In this document: piece by piece, positions 49,816 through 56,867 of the stretch
How positions within the stretch are numbered: the first letter of the stretch is position 1
Layout: each line of letters opens with the position of its first letter
Source of the DNA: Cyanidium caldarium
Lineage: Eukaryota; Rhodophyta; Bangiophyceae; Cyanidiales; Cyanidiaceae
NCBI GenBank assembly: GCA_026184775.1
Contig: JANCYW010000003.1
Location: 124,001 to 188,000, forward strand
DNA: 64,000 nt
Reading direction: 5' to 3'
Made by a program: the position numbers and the translations under genes
Notes under the pieces: generated by a model
Databases searched by the model: none
Seen by the model: only the letters and a program-made list of their open reading frames with translations
Told to the model about the DNA's origin: nothing

Positions 49816-52800
49816 CTACTCCCGCGTCGGTGCCCGTCGCGAAGACACCCGCACCAGACGCTCGGCAAAGCGCGCCGGCTCCACGCGCTCCGCTCCGCCG
49901 ATCATAACGTTGCGCTCGCGCCGCTCGCTGATATCGTAAGCCGCCCGCACCTCGTTGGTGCTCACACCGCCCAGCACGAACAACAGCGTGCGCGGCCGCA
50001 TCTTGGCGCCCTCCGACTCCGCCGTCGAGCCGGCCACATCCGCCGAACTCGCTCCCGCCGTGGCGGCCGCCGAACTGGCCAGCGAGCCGGCGCGCATGGA
50101 CGACGCCGGCGACAGCGACGACGACGACACCGACCACGAGCCGGTGTGCTGCGAGTCGCCCGATAGCCGTGGCGAATGGGAGCGGTCGCGCTCCTCGTCG
50201 CTGCCGCTGCCGCTCGGGCTGGGACGCCGCAACGCCTCCGCCTCCAGGTCCAACTCGAAGTCGTCCTCCGCACCGCCGCCGCCGCTGTTGCTCGATGCGC
50301 CCGGCAGCACCCGACGGAACAACGAGGTGAGCAACATACTACCGGCCGCCAGGCGCGCTGCGGCTGCCGCCGCCCGCCGCGACCGCGACGGTGGCGAATG
50401 ACCGCGGGCCAGCGGGAACGCCTCGTACGGCAACGCGTCCAGCGCAGTGTCCTCGATCAGATCGCGCATCAGCGGCACGTACCGCTCTGAGATGCCGACG
50501 GTGTCCAGCGCGGCTCGTTGACGACCGGCAGCGCGCACCGACCGCCGCAGCGCCTCCTGCTCCCGGCGTGCCATCTCCCGCAGCTGCCGCACGTTGCGCA
50601 ACACCGCGGGCGCCTCGACAGCGCGCACGGCTCCGCTCTGCACCAACATGTTGACGCTGTCGGCTTCGGGCTCGCTGTGGCAGGTGAGAAGGTACAGTAG
50701 CACCACCCGCAACTTGTCCAGCGAGTCATAAGCGATGCTAGCGGTACGGCTACTGGATGGCACGTCGGCGCCGTTCGCCTGCAGCCGTTCCCACACCAGC
50801 GTGCGCGCCTCGTCATCGCGCAGCGCGGCCCCGGTGGGTGCCTGTCGCCGCGTGGCCAGCGCCTGTTCCACCTGTAGCAGCTGTTGCAGGCCGCGCTGGT
50901 GAAAGTGCTGCAGCAACTGCTCCAGCATCGAGGCGTGAAAGTCCACGCTCGCCAGCCAGCGGTGCCCGTCCGCGGCAGCGGAGGCAGCCTCTTCTTGATC
51001 GCGCAACCGCGACTGCACCTCGCGACGCAACGAATGCAAGTCGAACACGCTGGTGGCACGCACGCCGCCGGCATGGCACGCCTCGTGGTACAGCTCGATG
51101 AGGCGACGCGTCGCCTCGGTGACGTGCACGAAGCGCAGTGCCCGCCAGATGTCGTCGCGGTTCTCGTCCATGAAGGTTGCCGCCGCTTCATCGGTCGGCG
51201 ACGGCAACAGATCCTGCACCAGCGCCTCGTAGGAAAGGGCGTGCAACAGCGGCGCGATGAGGTCGACGGTGCGCGGCACCAGAATCACCGTCGCCCGCGC
51301 CCGCGGCGCTTGCCGCAACCGTGAATCGTTCACCACCATCTCCGGATGCTTGCGCAACAGGCGCGCCAGCCGCTCGGCCACGGCGCGCGCCGTCTCCGAC
51401 GGAGCCAGATACCGCACCCGCGGCACTTCGCCCAGCACACAGCACGCGGTGAATAATGCGGTGGCGATGTCGGCCGTGCCGGCCTCGGGCAACGTAAACA
51501 CGCGCTGCTCAATGGCGGCAAAGTGCACGTTCACATCGTGCACCGCGAACGGCAGCGTGGGCGACGGCTCGGTGGATACAGCAGTGAGCAGGCGCTGGCG
51601 CGGCGACACCGCGAACAGATCGGCGTCGACCGCATAGGTAAAGTACACCCCGGCGATCGGTCTCTGCTGGGAACGCAGCGCCAACACCTGATCCACCGTG
51701 CGCGAGGCCGGCTCGATCAGCACCACCATGGGTGATGCAGCACCCTCCTGCTCCTGCTCGGCCTGCTCGATGGACAACAGCCGCGAGTAGCCGGCGACGC
51801 GCAACTCTTCCGCGGAGAACGCCGCCAACAGGATCTGGCGCGAGGCCGCGTCCACCACCAGCGTGTTGGCGTGCCGCGGCGTGGCCGCATCATCGTACAA
51901 CATCAACCGCACCAGGCGCTCGCGGGTGAGGTCGCGGAGGAAGGCGTTCGGGTCGAGCGGCTCGTTGGAGAGCAGCGGGCGCGGCGTCGGCGGTCGACTC
52001 AGGTCGTCGTCGTCGTCGGGCGCGGGCGGTACGGCCACGGCCAGCGGCGGCGGCTCTGCAACGGGTGCAGCTGGCGGTGTGGCATCCCATTCGGCGCCGG
52101 GTTTTTCCGCCAACGACCGATCGGGTTTCAGACACGACTCCACGCCGAGTATCACCGCAGCGATGGCGACGGTCAGCAATGCACCGCCCACCAGCCCGCC
52201 CACCAGCGCCGCCAACAACACCGGCTCGCCGCTCGAGCCCGGCAAGCCCCTGACCGTGTCGCCGCTCCAGCTGGAGGACTGCACCGAGGCGCCGCCACCG
52301 GACCACGCATCATCGATGGCCGTCTGCAAAGCGGTGGCATCCGCGGCGCGGGTCACACGATCGCCGCTGCCCCACGGCGACTGCAGCTGCACCAGTGCCA
52401 CGGTGCCGGATCCGGTCGAGGTGGCAGCCGCGGCGTGCACTGCGATTGCCCACCGCGCTACGGTGCCATCATCCGGCGCCAGCACACCGCGCAGCGCGTA
52501 CACCGATGCGCCCAACGCCACCGTGGTGTCGATGGCGACGGCACTGTGGGTGGTGCTGGAGGCGTGTGTGGCCGCCGAACTGTCGTTGGACGGCGACGCC
52601 AACGACTGCTGCACCAGGCTGGCGAGTGCAGCGCGGAAATGCGCATTGGAGGCGGCGGCGTTGAAAGTGTCCGGCGTGATGCCGTTCACCGTGACCAGGA
52701 CGTTGCTGGCGTCGTGTCCCAGTTGCGGGAACGGGTACTGAAAGCGGAGCGATCCGGCGAGTGCCGTCGCCGTCGGCGTCGACGCGGGAGAGGCGGAGGA

Positions 52801-53502
52801 AGAGGAAGATGGCGACGGCGATGGTGACGGGCCTGATGATACCGTCGATGCCAACGACGTGCGCGGCGCCGAATGATGCTCCGACGGCGATGGCGATGGC
52901 GTCAACGACGATGAGCGGGTTCTGCCCGAGGGATGGTGATGCTCCGATGGCGATGGCGCCAGCGTGTCTTGATGCGGAGTGTGGCGTGGCGGGCGCGTCG
53001 TCGGCATCGGGGTGGGGATCGGTGTGGGCGTGGGCGTATGCGATGGATGCTGCGGCACCACCCGCTCGGGCGTCGGCGTCGGCGTGGGGGCCACCGCTCG
53101 CGGTTCGGTCGTCCGCCGCGGCCGCGTCGGTGTGCGCTTCGGCGGCGCGGTGGCGATATCACAAATTTCACACAACGTCCCCGACCAGCCATAACCGCAC
53201 TGACACTCCCACCGTCCCTGCACGGCGCCGGTGTCCGTCGCCCAGCGCTGGTTGCCCGTGCCGCTGCCGTCCCAGGTCACAAACTCGCAAGTGCCGTGTC
53301 CCGAGCACAGCTGCCCGCTCGGGTCGTCGGCCTTGCGGCAATACCACACCCCGTCCACCTCCTTGCGGTCCACGACGGCACGTTCTACCGGCGGGACTGC
53401 CGCAAGGCGCTGCGGAAGCGCCTCGGCTGACGCCGAGAGCGAGCTCAGCGCGACGAGGCCGAGCGAAACAAAGTAGAGGAGAAAAGTACGACGCGGATAC
53501 AT
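49816..53502 (-). CDS. Membrane-anchored EGF-Sec1/Munc18 fusion protein
   Basis: 1228 residues in one unbroken frame from ATG 53500-53502. In order: signal peptide at about 1-26 (MYPRRTFLLYFVSLGLVALS...ASA); an EGF-like domain at about 54-114 (CSGHGTCEF, WECQCGYGWSGTLCEICD); a Pro/Thr/Ser stalk at about 118-250; a further lumenal segment at about 251-425 (LRFQYPFPQLGHDASNVLVTVNG...); one transmembrane helix at about 428-453 (VLLAALVGGLVGGALLTVAIAAVILG); a short acidic linker; and an SM domain at about 518-1228. SM landmarks: VVDAASRQIL, RTVDQVLALRS, GVYFTYAVDADLF, VILVPRTVDLIAPLLHALSYEALVQDLL, ISERYVPLMRDLIEDTALD, and the C-terminal TLLFVLGGVSTNEVRAAYDIS. A long Ser-rich insert precedes the last block. 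SM proteins clasp SNARE bundles for membrane fusion and are normally soluble; here the domain would be cytosolic on a type I membrane protein. The first methionine after the membrane helix would already truncate the SM fold. Confidence 0.92.
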   Translation of the reverse strand: MYPRRTFLLYFVSLGLVALSSLSASAEALPQRLAAVPPVERAVVDRKEVDGVWYCRKADDPSGQLCSGHGTCEFVTWDGSGTGNQRWATDTGAVQGRWECQCGYGWSGTLCEICDIATAPPKRTPTRPRRTTEPRAVAPTPTPTPERVVPQHPSHTPTPTPIPTPMPTTRPPRHTPHQDTLAPSPSEHHHPSGRTRSSSLTPSPSPSEHHSAPRTSLASTVSSGPSPSPSPSSSSSASPASTPTATALAGSLRFQYPFPQLGHDASNVLVTVNGITPDTFNAAASNAHFRAALASLVQQSLASPSNDSSAATHASSTTHSAVAIDTTVALGASVYALRGVLAPDDGTVARWAIAVHAAAATSTGSGTVALVQLQSPWGSGDRVTRAADATALQTAIDDAWSGGGASVQSSSWSGDTVRGLPGSSGEPVLLAALVGGLVGGALLTVAIAAVILGVESCLKPDRSLAEKPGAEWDATPPAAPVAEPPPLAVAVPPAPDDDDDLSRPPTPRPLLSNEPLDPNAFLRDLTRERLVRLMLYDDAATPRHANTLVVDAASRQILLAAFSAEELRVAGYSRLLSIEQAEQEQEGAASPMVVLIEPASRTVDQVLALRSQQRPIAGVYFTYAVDADLFAVSPRQRLLTAVSTEPSPTLPFAVHDVNVHFAAIEQRVFTLPEAGTADIATALFTACCVLGEVPRVRYLAPSETARAVAERLARLLRKHPEMVVNDSRLRQAPRARATVILVPRTVDLIAPLLHALSYEALVQDLLPSPTDEAAATFMDENRDDIWRALRFVHVTEATRRLIELYHEACHAGGVRATSVFDLHSLRREVQSRLRDQEEAASAAADGHRWLASVDFHASMLEQLLQHFHQRGLQQLLQVEQALATRRQAPTGAALRDDEARTLVWERLQANGADVPSSSRTASIAYDSLDKLRVVLLYLLTCHSEPEADSVNMLVQSGAVRAVEAPAVLRNVRQLREMARREQEALRRSVRAAGRQRAALDTVGISERYVPLMRDLIEDTALDALPYEAFPLARGHSPPSRSRRAAAAAARLAAGSMLLTSLFRRVLPGASSNSGGGGAEDDFELDLEAEALRRPSPSGSGSDEERDRSHSPRLSGDSQHTGSWSVSSSSLSPASSMRAGSLASSAAATAGASSADVAGSTAESEGAKMRPRTLLFVLGGVSTNEVRAAYDISERRERNVMIGGAERVEPARFAERLVRVSSRRAPTRE

Positions 53503-54329: not shown

Positions 54330-56867
54330 ATGGAAGATCTTGGCGACGAGGCTGGCAGGGAATCTCGATCGCCCACTGCTGACGTCGCCGTCTCTTCGAA
54401 TACCAGTGGATCCCCAGGCGGCCGGGCGTCTGCTTCAACCTCGACTGCCTCCCGCACAGCGCCACCGTTCCTGCAGCGCACGCTGGACATTTCCGCAACG
54501 ACCTCTCCCAACGCGTCACACCCCGTTCGTAAGCGGCAGCGGCGACACTGCTGCCGCTCTCTAGACCAAGTGGCGGCGTGGGCGACGGCGGCGGCACTGG
54601 GTCTGCCGCCGCCGTCCTCACCCGACTGGTCGCGACGACTGCGGGCGGCTTTCCTGGAGCAACCGGACCAGCTGCGGCTGCGTCTCGGACCGTTGTGGCT
54701 GGCGGGGGCGGTGCGCAAAGTGGATGTGGCACCATGGACAGGCAGTCGCCCGCTGGATTGGAGCGCGGCATCGGCCAATACATCGGGCGCGGGCATCACC
54801 GAACATCCGCTGCAGCTGACGTTGGCGCTGGGCGATATCGGCGGCGTCACAAACATGCTGGGGCATCGGCCGACGTATCGGTGTTCGACAGGTCCCCGCT
54901 CGGCCTTGCAGTGCTCGCGGCGCAAAGCGAGCGCGGGCAAAACGGGCACATGTCCGCCGGTGCCGTGGCGCGTCCTGGCGCGACGCGAGGTTCAAGTGCC
55001 GCTGCGATCGCTGACCAGTGCGACGTCCAGCTGTGCGGTGACGAATGCAAGGGCGGTCTCGTCAAAGCAACTCGTCCTGGATATGAAAGGCGAACTCATT
55101 GGACTCCTAGGCAGAATCAGCCGTCACGAAGTTCCGGTGCTGCTGCTGACTGAAACGGTGACTCGACTGGTGGTCGGCTGGTCGAGCTGCAATGACCACG
55201 GCGGGAATCGAGAGTTGTCGCCCGTGTCCGAAACGCCGATGGTGTCAGAGGGTGTGTGCGGCCTGCTGCCGTTGGCGGACGTGGACGTCGCCGAATGGCT
55301 GCCTTCGGGCACGTTTTTCATACCCATCCGCTCGGTGGATGCGCGTGCGCAGCTGCTGGAATGCTCGCTGGAATGGCGTTCGGAGCGGTTGCAAGGACAC
55401 CAAAATGCGGCCAACGTGAGACCGCTGCCGGCCGGTGGAAGAGTGAACGGAGGCGACGGCAGTGGCTCTGTGGCGCCTGTGGAGAAATCCAAGGACGCGA
55501 CACAGTGCGATCTGCTCGCCAGCACGGCCGAGCAGCCGGTACAGCGGTATCGTGCCTGGCTTACACAACAGACAGAGCACCTGACGGCGCGGATGGGGAA
55601 TGGGGCCGCGGCGCCGCAGCCTGACCAGCATCCGCAATGTACCTGGTGTCACTGGCGCTTCTCTAGCGAGGAGCGGCTTTGGCGACACTGGGACGATTTT
55701 CATCACTTGCGACCGGTCGCTGCCTATGCGTGGGCACGCGGCAATCGTGCGCCAAACGCGCTGCCATCGCCTACTTCCCTTGCATGGCTGCCAGGCGCGA
55801 TGCCGCCGGCGGTAATGTCATGGCCACCGCGGACCGATCTGGCGAAAACTGGCGCCGGTCGCCGCACATGTTTGCCACCGCCGCTGACGCCAACCCGGCG
55901 GCAACCCACGACACCCCCCCGCGACTGGTTCATGTGGAGACGGACGCGGCGCCAGCGTGCACGGGAGGTGGATAGCGGACGCGAAACATGCGGCGCGGAT
56001 GTCCCGGCGACGCTGCAGACGAGCATACCGTTCACGGGGAAGCGTCCGGTCGATGTCGCTGCGGCGGACGCAGTCAACGATGTGGTGGATGATGCGTCAT
56101 CGATATGCTCCACGCTCGATGCGGGTCGTCGCGAGCCATGCGCCACTCAAGTCGCTGCGGAGAGTGCTGCAACCCATTCGCGGCGCACCCGACGCGCCAA
56201 CCTCGGTTTGCGCACGCTGGACCATATTCGCTGCGAGGCGCCGCCGACGGCCGAGACCATGACCGCCGCGACGACGACAACGGCACCCTCGACACGCAAG
56301 AGGGCCACCCGACGCACCACCACCACCACCACCAACGCGCAGGATGTACCCAGTCGCAAACGGCAACGCAGGTGGACAGAAGAGGTGCCCGGCACCACCT
56401 CCAGACTGTTCGACCGCACCTACTACCATTCGATGACGCTGGAGCCGATGACCCGCGCCGAGGTGCTGTCGGATTACGACTCGGAGGTGGACGGCCTGGA
56501 CGATGCGTGGGTGCTGCGCGTGGCCGAGCAGCGCCTCGAGCAGTTCACCGACGTGCTGCCCGAGGAGAACTTGCTGATGCGGTGGTGGAATGCGTTCATA
56601 CATCGGCAGCCGACGCCGCGGAGCGATCGCTCGGTGCGAGAGGCGGGTGTCGCATTCGCCGCGCAGCTGGGCACCCGTTGCGCCCGCGGCGACGCCGGCT
56701 GCGATGCTGGCGCCATGCGAGCGGCACTGCTGATGCATCTGAAGGCGTTGTGGCACTTCCACTTGGTGGATGTCGAGCGCCTGCACGAGTCCCTGACGGC
56801 TTTCGATACGGCGCTGGCGGAGCGTGCGACCGTGGACAAGCTCAAGGCCGAACACGGGAGCGGATAG
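54330..56867 (+). CDS. SUZ12: Su(z)12/EMF2-type Polycomb PRC2 subunit
   Basis: 845 residues from ATG 54330. A single C2H2 zinc finger lies at about 437-460 (CTWCHWRFSSEERLWRHWDDFHH), the position and spacing of the Su(z)12 finger. The VEFS box is at about 690-825: LFDRTYYHSMTLEPMTRAEVLSDYDSEVDGLDDAWVL, RLEQFTDVLPEENLLMRWWNAFIHR, and LLMHLKALWHFHLVDVERLHESL. The N-terminal half contains conserved-looking strands (LQLTLALGDIG, WRVLARREVQVPLRSL) and Thr/Ala-rich linkers. In PRC2 this subunit with Nurf55 and E(z) supports H3K27 methylation. E(z) and ESC are not in this window. Confidence 0.92.
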   Translation: MEDLGDEAGRESRSPTADVAVSSNTSGSPGGRASASTSTASRTAPPFLQRTLDISATTSPNASHPVRKRQRRHCCRSLDQVAAWATAAALGLPPPSSPDWSRRLRAAFLEQPDQLRLRLGPLWLAGAVRKVDVAPWTGSRPLDWSAASANTSGAGITEHPLQLTLALGDIGGVTNMLGHRPTYRCSTGPRSALQCSRRKASAGKTGTCPPVPWRVLARREVQVPLRSLTSATSSCAVTNARAVSSKQLVLDMKGELIGLLGRISRHEVPVLLLTETVTRLVVGWSSCNDHGGNRELSPVSETPMVSEGVCGLLPLADVDVAEWLPSGTFFIPIRSVDARAQLLECSLEWRSERLQGHQNAANVRPLPAGGRVNGGDGSGSVAPVEKSKDATQCDLLASTAEQPVQRYRAWLTQQTEHLTARMGNGAAAPQPDQHPQCTWCHWRFSSEERLWRHWDDFHHLRPVAAYAWARGNRAPNALPSPTSLAWLPGAMPPAVMSWPPRTDLAKTGAGRRTCLPPPLTPTRRQPTTPPRDWFMWRRTRRQRAREVDSGRETCGADVPATLQTSIPFTGKRPVDVAAADAVNDVVDDASSICSTLDAGRREPCATQVAAESAATHSRRTRRANLGLRTLDHIRCEAPPTAETMTAATTTTAPSTRKRATRRTTTTTTNAQDVPSRKRQRRWTEEVPGTTSRLFDRTYYHSMTLEPMTRAEVLSDYDSEVDGLDDAWVLRVAEQRLEQFTDVLPEENLLMRWWNAFIHRQPTPRSDRSVREAGVAFAAQLGTRCARGDAGCDAGAMRAALLMHLKALWHFHLVDVERLHESLTAFDTALAERATVDKLKAEHGSG

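Follow-up and report, generated by a model that had tools for sequence, protein, structure and literature searches.

Sec1/Munc18 (SM) proteins are regarded as soluble chaperones that need recruitment to SNAREs. What, then, is encoded by a gene of the hot-spring red alga Cyanidium caldarium that appears to place a signal peptide, an ectodomain and a membrane helix ahead of an SM domain? The gene lies on the minus strand (49816..53502) of a 64,000-nucleotide stretch of DNA, the window, which spans bases 124001-188000 of contig 3. The genome totals 8.79 Mb in 20 contigs; the excerpted text on the published C. caldarium assembly gives 20 chromosomes (PMC9812998). Sequence comparison and structure prediction establish an N-terminal hydrophobic segment, an ectodomain, a membrane helix and an SM fold, find the arrangement at five loci, and show one paralog to be conserved in another genus. 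Our preferred reading, to which we give a probability of about 55%, is that the window gene encodes a single-pass, receptor-like SM protein of the Sec1/Munc18 class, one of five paralogs, that would act in cis by the mechanism proposed below.

One continuous frame encodes the whole protein

The gene is a frame of 1228 codons plus stop, with the ATG at 53502 and the stop at 49818-49816; the closest in-frame stop 5′ of the ATG is 24 codons away. When we shuffled the bases of the gene 300 times and scanned three frames, the longest stop-free runs had a mean of 229 and a maximum of 428 codons, so a frame of this length is beyond chance. Each of the nine segments of the gene, helix and linker included, has a third-position GC of 0.74-0.94; in the 827 bases upstream, GC per phase is 0.58-0.61. 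In the stalk and linker, a codon position other than the third is richer still in GC. The gene is a single continuous coding frame, as the sequence-only reading of this DNA had it, with coding-type third-position GC throughout.

A complete SM domain follows a predicted signal peptide, an ectodomain and a helix in the membrane

The SM domain occupies residues about 521-1220 (49843..51942) by profile, Protein Data Bank (PDB) match and model. The Pfam family PF00995 matches residues 547-1213 with E=7.1e-54 and 184.4 bits (cut-off 30.7), covering profile positions 2-573 of 575. Munc18-2 and Munc18-1 head the PDB matches (E=1.4e-24 to 7.5e-23), and Munc18/Sec1 is nearer than Sly1, Vps45 or Vps33, which places the copy in the exocytic subfamily. 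The predicted structure has the three-domain arch fold of SM proteins. Its first SM helix is predicted at 522-535, within a stretch aligned to the Munc18-1 N-terminus, and near the C-terminus a LLFVLGGVSTNEVR block (residues 1173-1186, 49945..49986) aligns with the LGGVS block of Munc18. Ahead of this block sits a low-confidence, probably disordered Ser/acidic insert (residues 1037-1165, 50008..50394), which corresponds to residues 538-666 of the SM model, where the confidence score (pLDDT) is under 50. Several paralogs have RS-rich inserts at the same place, and the insert is a possible phosphorylation region.

SM proteins are usually soluble or peripheral and lack a membrane helix, although this trait is not strictly defining. 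The window copy departs from it. A hydropathy scan gives exactly two peaks, 6-24 and 433-451. The first belongs to a predicted signal peptide, residues 1-26 (53425..53502), with an MYPRRT n-region, a FLLYFVSLGLVALSSL core and ASA before E27. The second marks a transmembrane helix at about residues 428-452 (52147..52221), which is conserved in the related proteins P0002 and P0004. Signal-peptide and type I calls, here and below, were made by hydrophobicity and -3/-1 heuristics only. After the helix comes a presumably cytosolic linker (residues 453-520, 51943..52146), with Cys457 just past the helix.

Between signal peptide and helix, three regions can be told apart. The first, residues 55-114 (53161..53340), is an EGF-like cysteine module with C66, C72, C100, C102 and C111. 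The second, residues about 119-250 (52753..53148), is a Pro/Ser/Thr-rich stalk that reaches 66% of these residues in its richest 80. The third, residues about 263-417 (52252..52716), is a putative juxtamembrane alpha/beta domain with ferredoxin-like order in a low-confidence model; at its start, 13 of 40 residues are identical to the paralog on chromosome 1, and a comparison of the domain with the Cyanidiococcus protein P0011 gave no meaningful match.

This outline agrees with the earlier claims of a secretory signal, a Pro/Thr/Ser stalk, one membrane helix and a complete SM domain with its C-terminal block. Two further claims stood in part. The EGF-like domain has the cysteine pattern, but 27 residues separate C72 from C100 and the Pfam matches fall below curated cut-offs: the isolated piece gives best EGF matches of E 0.0035-0.067, with EGF_2 at 15.5 bits (cut-off 22.1) in two split stretches, and a Pfam scan of the whole protein gives no EGF match at E up to 1. 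The first methionine past the membrane helix, Met534 (51901..51903), had been placed inside the SM fold; it does lie within the first predicted SM helix, but 13 residues before the Pfam match starts, and is a close call.

Five of ten SM loci share the architecture

A search of the genome with the Sec1 profile found 11 places, 10 of them over the cut-off. In half of these 10 loci, the SM domain is preceded by an N-terminal hydrophobic segment, then an ectodomain and then a membrane helix. They lie on five chromosomes: C3 (the window), C12 (C12:190781), C9, C1 and C2. For the paralogs, we took the NCBI start for C12 and the Met at 50 for C1. The membrane-anchored SM architecture thus turns out, by sequence, to be a family in C. 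caldarium and not a lone gene. The earlier proposal of a type I-like protein, with its ectodomain outside and its SM domain in the cytosol, is supported by sequence features and extends to a family that the proposal had not seen.

PDB matches assign the unanchored set to Sly1 (C14), Vps45 (C12:261019), Vps33 (C19) and Sec1/Munc18 (C17:244729), the last without signal or membrane helix. Among the anchored copies, the four compared with the PDB (window, C2, C12 and C1) all have Sec1/Munc18 as best match; the comparison left out C9 and C17:58049. C9 clusters with C2 in both of our trees (99/97 and 96/94), and neither tree resolves the deeper branches. By these assignments, there would be at least five genes of the Sec1/Munc18 class, or seven if C9 and C17:58049 belong.

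Two of the remaining loci deserve a word. The SM paralog at C17:58049-60220 starts MGNALCG, which we take to resemble an N-myristoylation/palmitoylation signal; here an SM protein may be attached to membranes in another manner, by a lipid. At C7:233925-234113, a 934-codon frame matches Sec1 weakly at its C-terminus, with 23 bits and thus under the cut-off, and the PDB gives nothing for it at E up to 10; it is a possible eleventh, highly diverged SM protein.

The ectodomains of the five are varied. The richest 80 residues hold 68% Pro, Ser and Thr in C12, 97% in C1, 31% in C9 and 35% in C2. The EGF-like module of C1, taken as an isolated piece, comes close to the EGF_2 cut-off (21.7 against 22.1 bits). 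The C9 ectodomain is similar to that of C2 (23% identity, pairwise E 5e-10), and C2 has a sub-threshold match to the sugar-hydrolase jelly roll PF06439 (E 6.7e-4) that C9 lacks. No Pfam domain exceeds its cut-off in the ectodomain pieces scanned. Directly 3′ of the C1 gene is a 1201-codon frame (L028:1086-4688, plus strand) with the same ectodomain, EGF-like module included, that ends before the helix; the two ectodomains are 48 and 40% identical in two pieces. By eye, we found no helix or SM sequence in three frames of the roughly 690 bases past this tandem frame, which is probably a secreted, ectodomain-only protein.

In four of the five copies, 5-7 of the 15 residues that follow the helix are basic, against none of the 15 that precede it, and the SM domain is therefore predicted to be cytosolic. 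N-glycosylation sequons outside and inside number 8 and 0 in C12, 11 and 3 in C9, 6 and 2 in C1, and 2 and 1 in C2. A third hydropathy peak occurs in C12, C9, C1 and C2; three of these peaks are in the SM domain or signal region.

The join between ectodomain, helix and SM domain is conserved

The sequence-only reading had rightly guessed a cyanidiophyte source and suggested a search of other cyanidiophyte genomes for the architecture; we found it in Cyanidiococcus yangmingshanensis. The C12 paralog, annotated as CDCA_CDCA12G3433 (1310 amino acids), is an uninterrupted genomic frame from its signal-peptide Met. Its Cyanidiococcus orthologs P0011 and P0012 keep the signal region, stalk, helix and SM domain and are 50% identical overall; P0008-P0010 start only within the ectodomain and have both the helix and the SM domain. 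Between C12 and P0011, identity is 347/587 in the SM domain, 36/74 in the juxtamembrane segment, 13/24 in the helix, 72/191 in the ectodomain and 50/129 in the stalk. The juxtamembrane segment, C12 residues 432-505, is marked by KYREQQ and lies between helix and SM domain in both genera.

Relatives of the window protein tell a similar story. P0002 (92% identical) and P0004 (40%) have ectodomain, helix and SM domain in frame. P0002 shares 141/154 residues of the ectodomain (274-427), 25/25 of the helix and 478/499 of the SM region 547-1045; for P0004 the corresponding identities are 30/127, 12/25 and 225/472. P0003 keeps ectodomain and helix, and its gene model departs from the common sequence inside the SM domain. 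From these comparisons, the junction itself has been retained, and constraint is strongest on the SM part.

Beside the window gene, an acyl-CoA dehydrogenase gene converges on it from downstream and ends 135 bases away. The divergent upstream neighbor (54330-56867, plus strand) starts 827 bases from it and bears a VEFS box (PF09733, 9.5e-18) together with a C2H2 finger match below threshold, features of a Su(z)12-like Polycomb protein.

What would a membrane-anchored SM protein do?

In the passages found of a study of cyanidiophyte life phases (PMC13353863), each of three Cyanidiales genomes has 10 SM genes and Galdieria has 8; SM genes mainly expressed in diploid, walled cells number 4 and 5 in two of the three and 6 in Cyanidium caldarium. 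The same passages describe two SYP1 Qa-SNAREs with phase-biased expression in Cyanidiales and the authors' proposal that at least one diploid SM protein works with SYP1 in building the nascent wall.

Taken with the architecture, the simplest mechanism would be a plasma-membrane SM protein that is fixed on the wall side by its ectodomain and works in cis on SYP1. The protein would enter the secretory pathway and come to lie in the plasma membrane, with its ectodomain in the cell wall or extracellular matrix and its SM domain facing the cytosol. There it would bind a SYP1-type Qa-SNARE in cis and template SNARE assembly where the ectodomain holds it. Secretion, mainly of wall material in the walled diploid phase, would occur only at contact with wall or matrix, or be gated by it, and the membrane anchor would substitute for the recruitment that soluble SM proteins normally need.

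Several observations weigh against this picture. The charged residues R39, K46 and E59 in domain 1 of Munc18-1 are contacts with closed syntaxin; the aligned residues are Q, S and L in the window copy, which may therefore bind differently, and A, R and E in the C12 paralog. By sequence, the SM copy in the window is a divergent one. Past its helix, basic and acidic residues are balanced at 3 each, with no positive-inside bias, and the sequons of this copy, one on each side, are uninformative. For C9, a third hydropathy peak within the ectodomain (347-365) makes single-pass topology less sure. Ectodomains differ, with a Pro/Ser/Thr stalk in three of five and an EGF-like module in two of five, both sub-threshold. 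Of the two SYP1 genes of C. caldarium, one is diploid-biased, but the haploid bias of the second is slight and does not reach the authors' threshold (PMC13353863).

A bolder version, which we advance tentatively, makes these proteins true receptors: the ectodomain would read the wall or matrix (a sugar, a force or a partner cell) and switch local exocytosis without kinase, GTPase or second messenger, the SM domain being the output. EGF-like, jelly-roll-like and mucin-like ectodomains on one SM output would then give the same answer to different cues, and the tandem ectodomain-only gene would make a secreted ligand or decoy. The sequence-only reading had gone in this direction, with a sensor linking a cue directly to membrane fusion. 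Its membrane-anchored SM architecture stands; the sensing stays conjectural, with an EGF-like module below threshold and a divergent SM domain in the window. Beyond anchoring, the ectodomain may also signal, by force or ligand altering SM activity.

It is also conceivable, though we doubt it, that the ectodomain is structural and the helix does no more than hold the SM protein at a membrane, be it plasma membrane, Golgi or vesicle, with no transmembrane signal. The ectodomains are divergent and, in the pieces scanned, devoid of Pfam domains over cut-off, and a single helix with a long linker would make a poor conformational relay. The lipid-anchor-like start of C17:58049 suggests that membrane attachment itself may have been selected. 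Against this stand the C12 signal region and long wall-type ectodomain, kept across two genera and exceeding what an anchor needs, and the tandem ectodomain-only copy beside C1.

It is unlikely that the SM fold, instead of templating fusion, has been preserved to sequester SNAREs or Rabs as a scaffold or competitor. The long joint branch of the window copy and P0004 (1.17 and 0.99 changes per column in two trees) and the loss of the three syntaxin-contact equivalents would fit it. Yet all three domains of the fold are there at full length, the LGGVS block near the C-terminus is retained, and the SM part is under more constraint than the ectodomain, given its higher identity to P0004.

That the fusion is not functional as such, and that a soluble SM protein is made from an internal start or a polycistronic message or is cut free by proteolysis, we consider improbable. 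Met534 could begin a nearly complete SM domain, methionines precede the domain in C12 (482 and 497) and C1 (1482), and the authors of the genome paper looked for polycistronic transcripts in these algae, according to the excerpted text. Methionine position alone is thus insufficient against an internal start for C12, C1 and, marginally, the window copy. In C9 and C2, by contrast, the first Met past the helix (566 and 679) comes 50 and 111 residues after the Pfam SM domain has begun (at 516 and 568). An assembly join or chance read-through of two genes, which the long chance frames of a GC-rich genome might suggest, is already contradicted by the same order at five independent loci, in other isolates and in another genus.

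Five of 10 SM loci with their own helix and ectodomain offer a natural test of what recruitment adds to SM function, and anchored SM proteins may help explain how two life phases with two SYP1 syntaxins make different coats. The group includes, according to the passages found, the genetically tractable Cyanidioschyzon.

Comparison with known systems

We did not find a membrane-anchored SM architecture in the literature, as covered by open-licence PMC articles. The published cyanidiophyte SM set includes the same species, also with 10 genes, an agreement in number only; the passages found treat them as SM proteins and mention neither ectodomain nor membrane helix (PMC13353863). A functional parallel, in the excerpted text, is a SNARE-like peptide of Munc18c that was given an artificial membrane anchor and boosted reconstituted fusion on the t-SNARE membrane, not the vesicle (PMC9547204). 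Since an SM part works when tethered on the t-SNARE side, cis anchoring is a workable geometry, although this was an engineered 25-residue peptide and not a natural full SM protein. The exocytic SM proteins Munc18-1, Munc18-2, yeast Sec1 and plant KEULE share the three-domain arch fold and PF00995 with the window protein, and their class supplies its best PDB matches in both sequence and fold. The members known so far have masses of 60-70 kDa in the passage available (PMC3693963), and the window protein is about twice as long. Unlike them, it has a predicted signal peptide, an ectodomain and a membrane helix. In that respect, it recalls the yeast wall sensors Wsc1 and Mid2, single-pass proteins with Ser/Thr-rich stalks whose tails recruit a Rho exchange factor. 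As commonly described, these too have a signal peptide, a Pro/Ser/Thr stalk, one helix and a cytosolic effector part. The likeness is one of architecture; in the window protein, the tail would itself be the SNARE chaperone.

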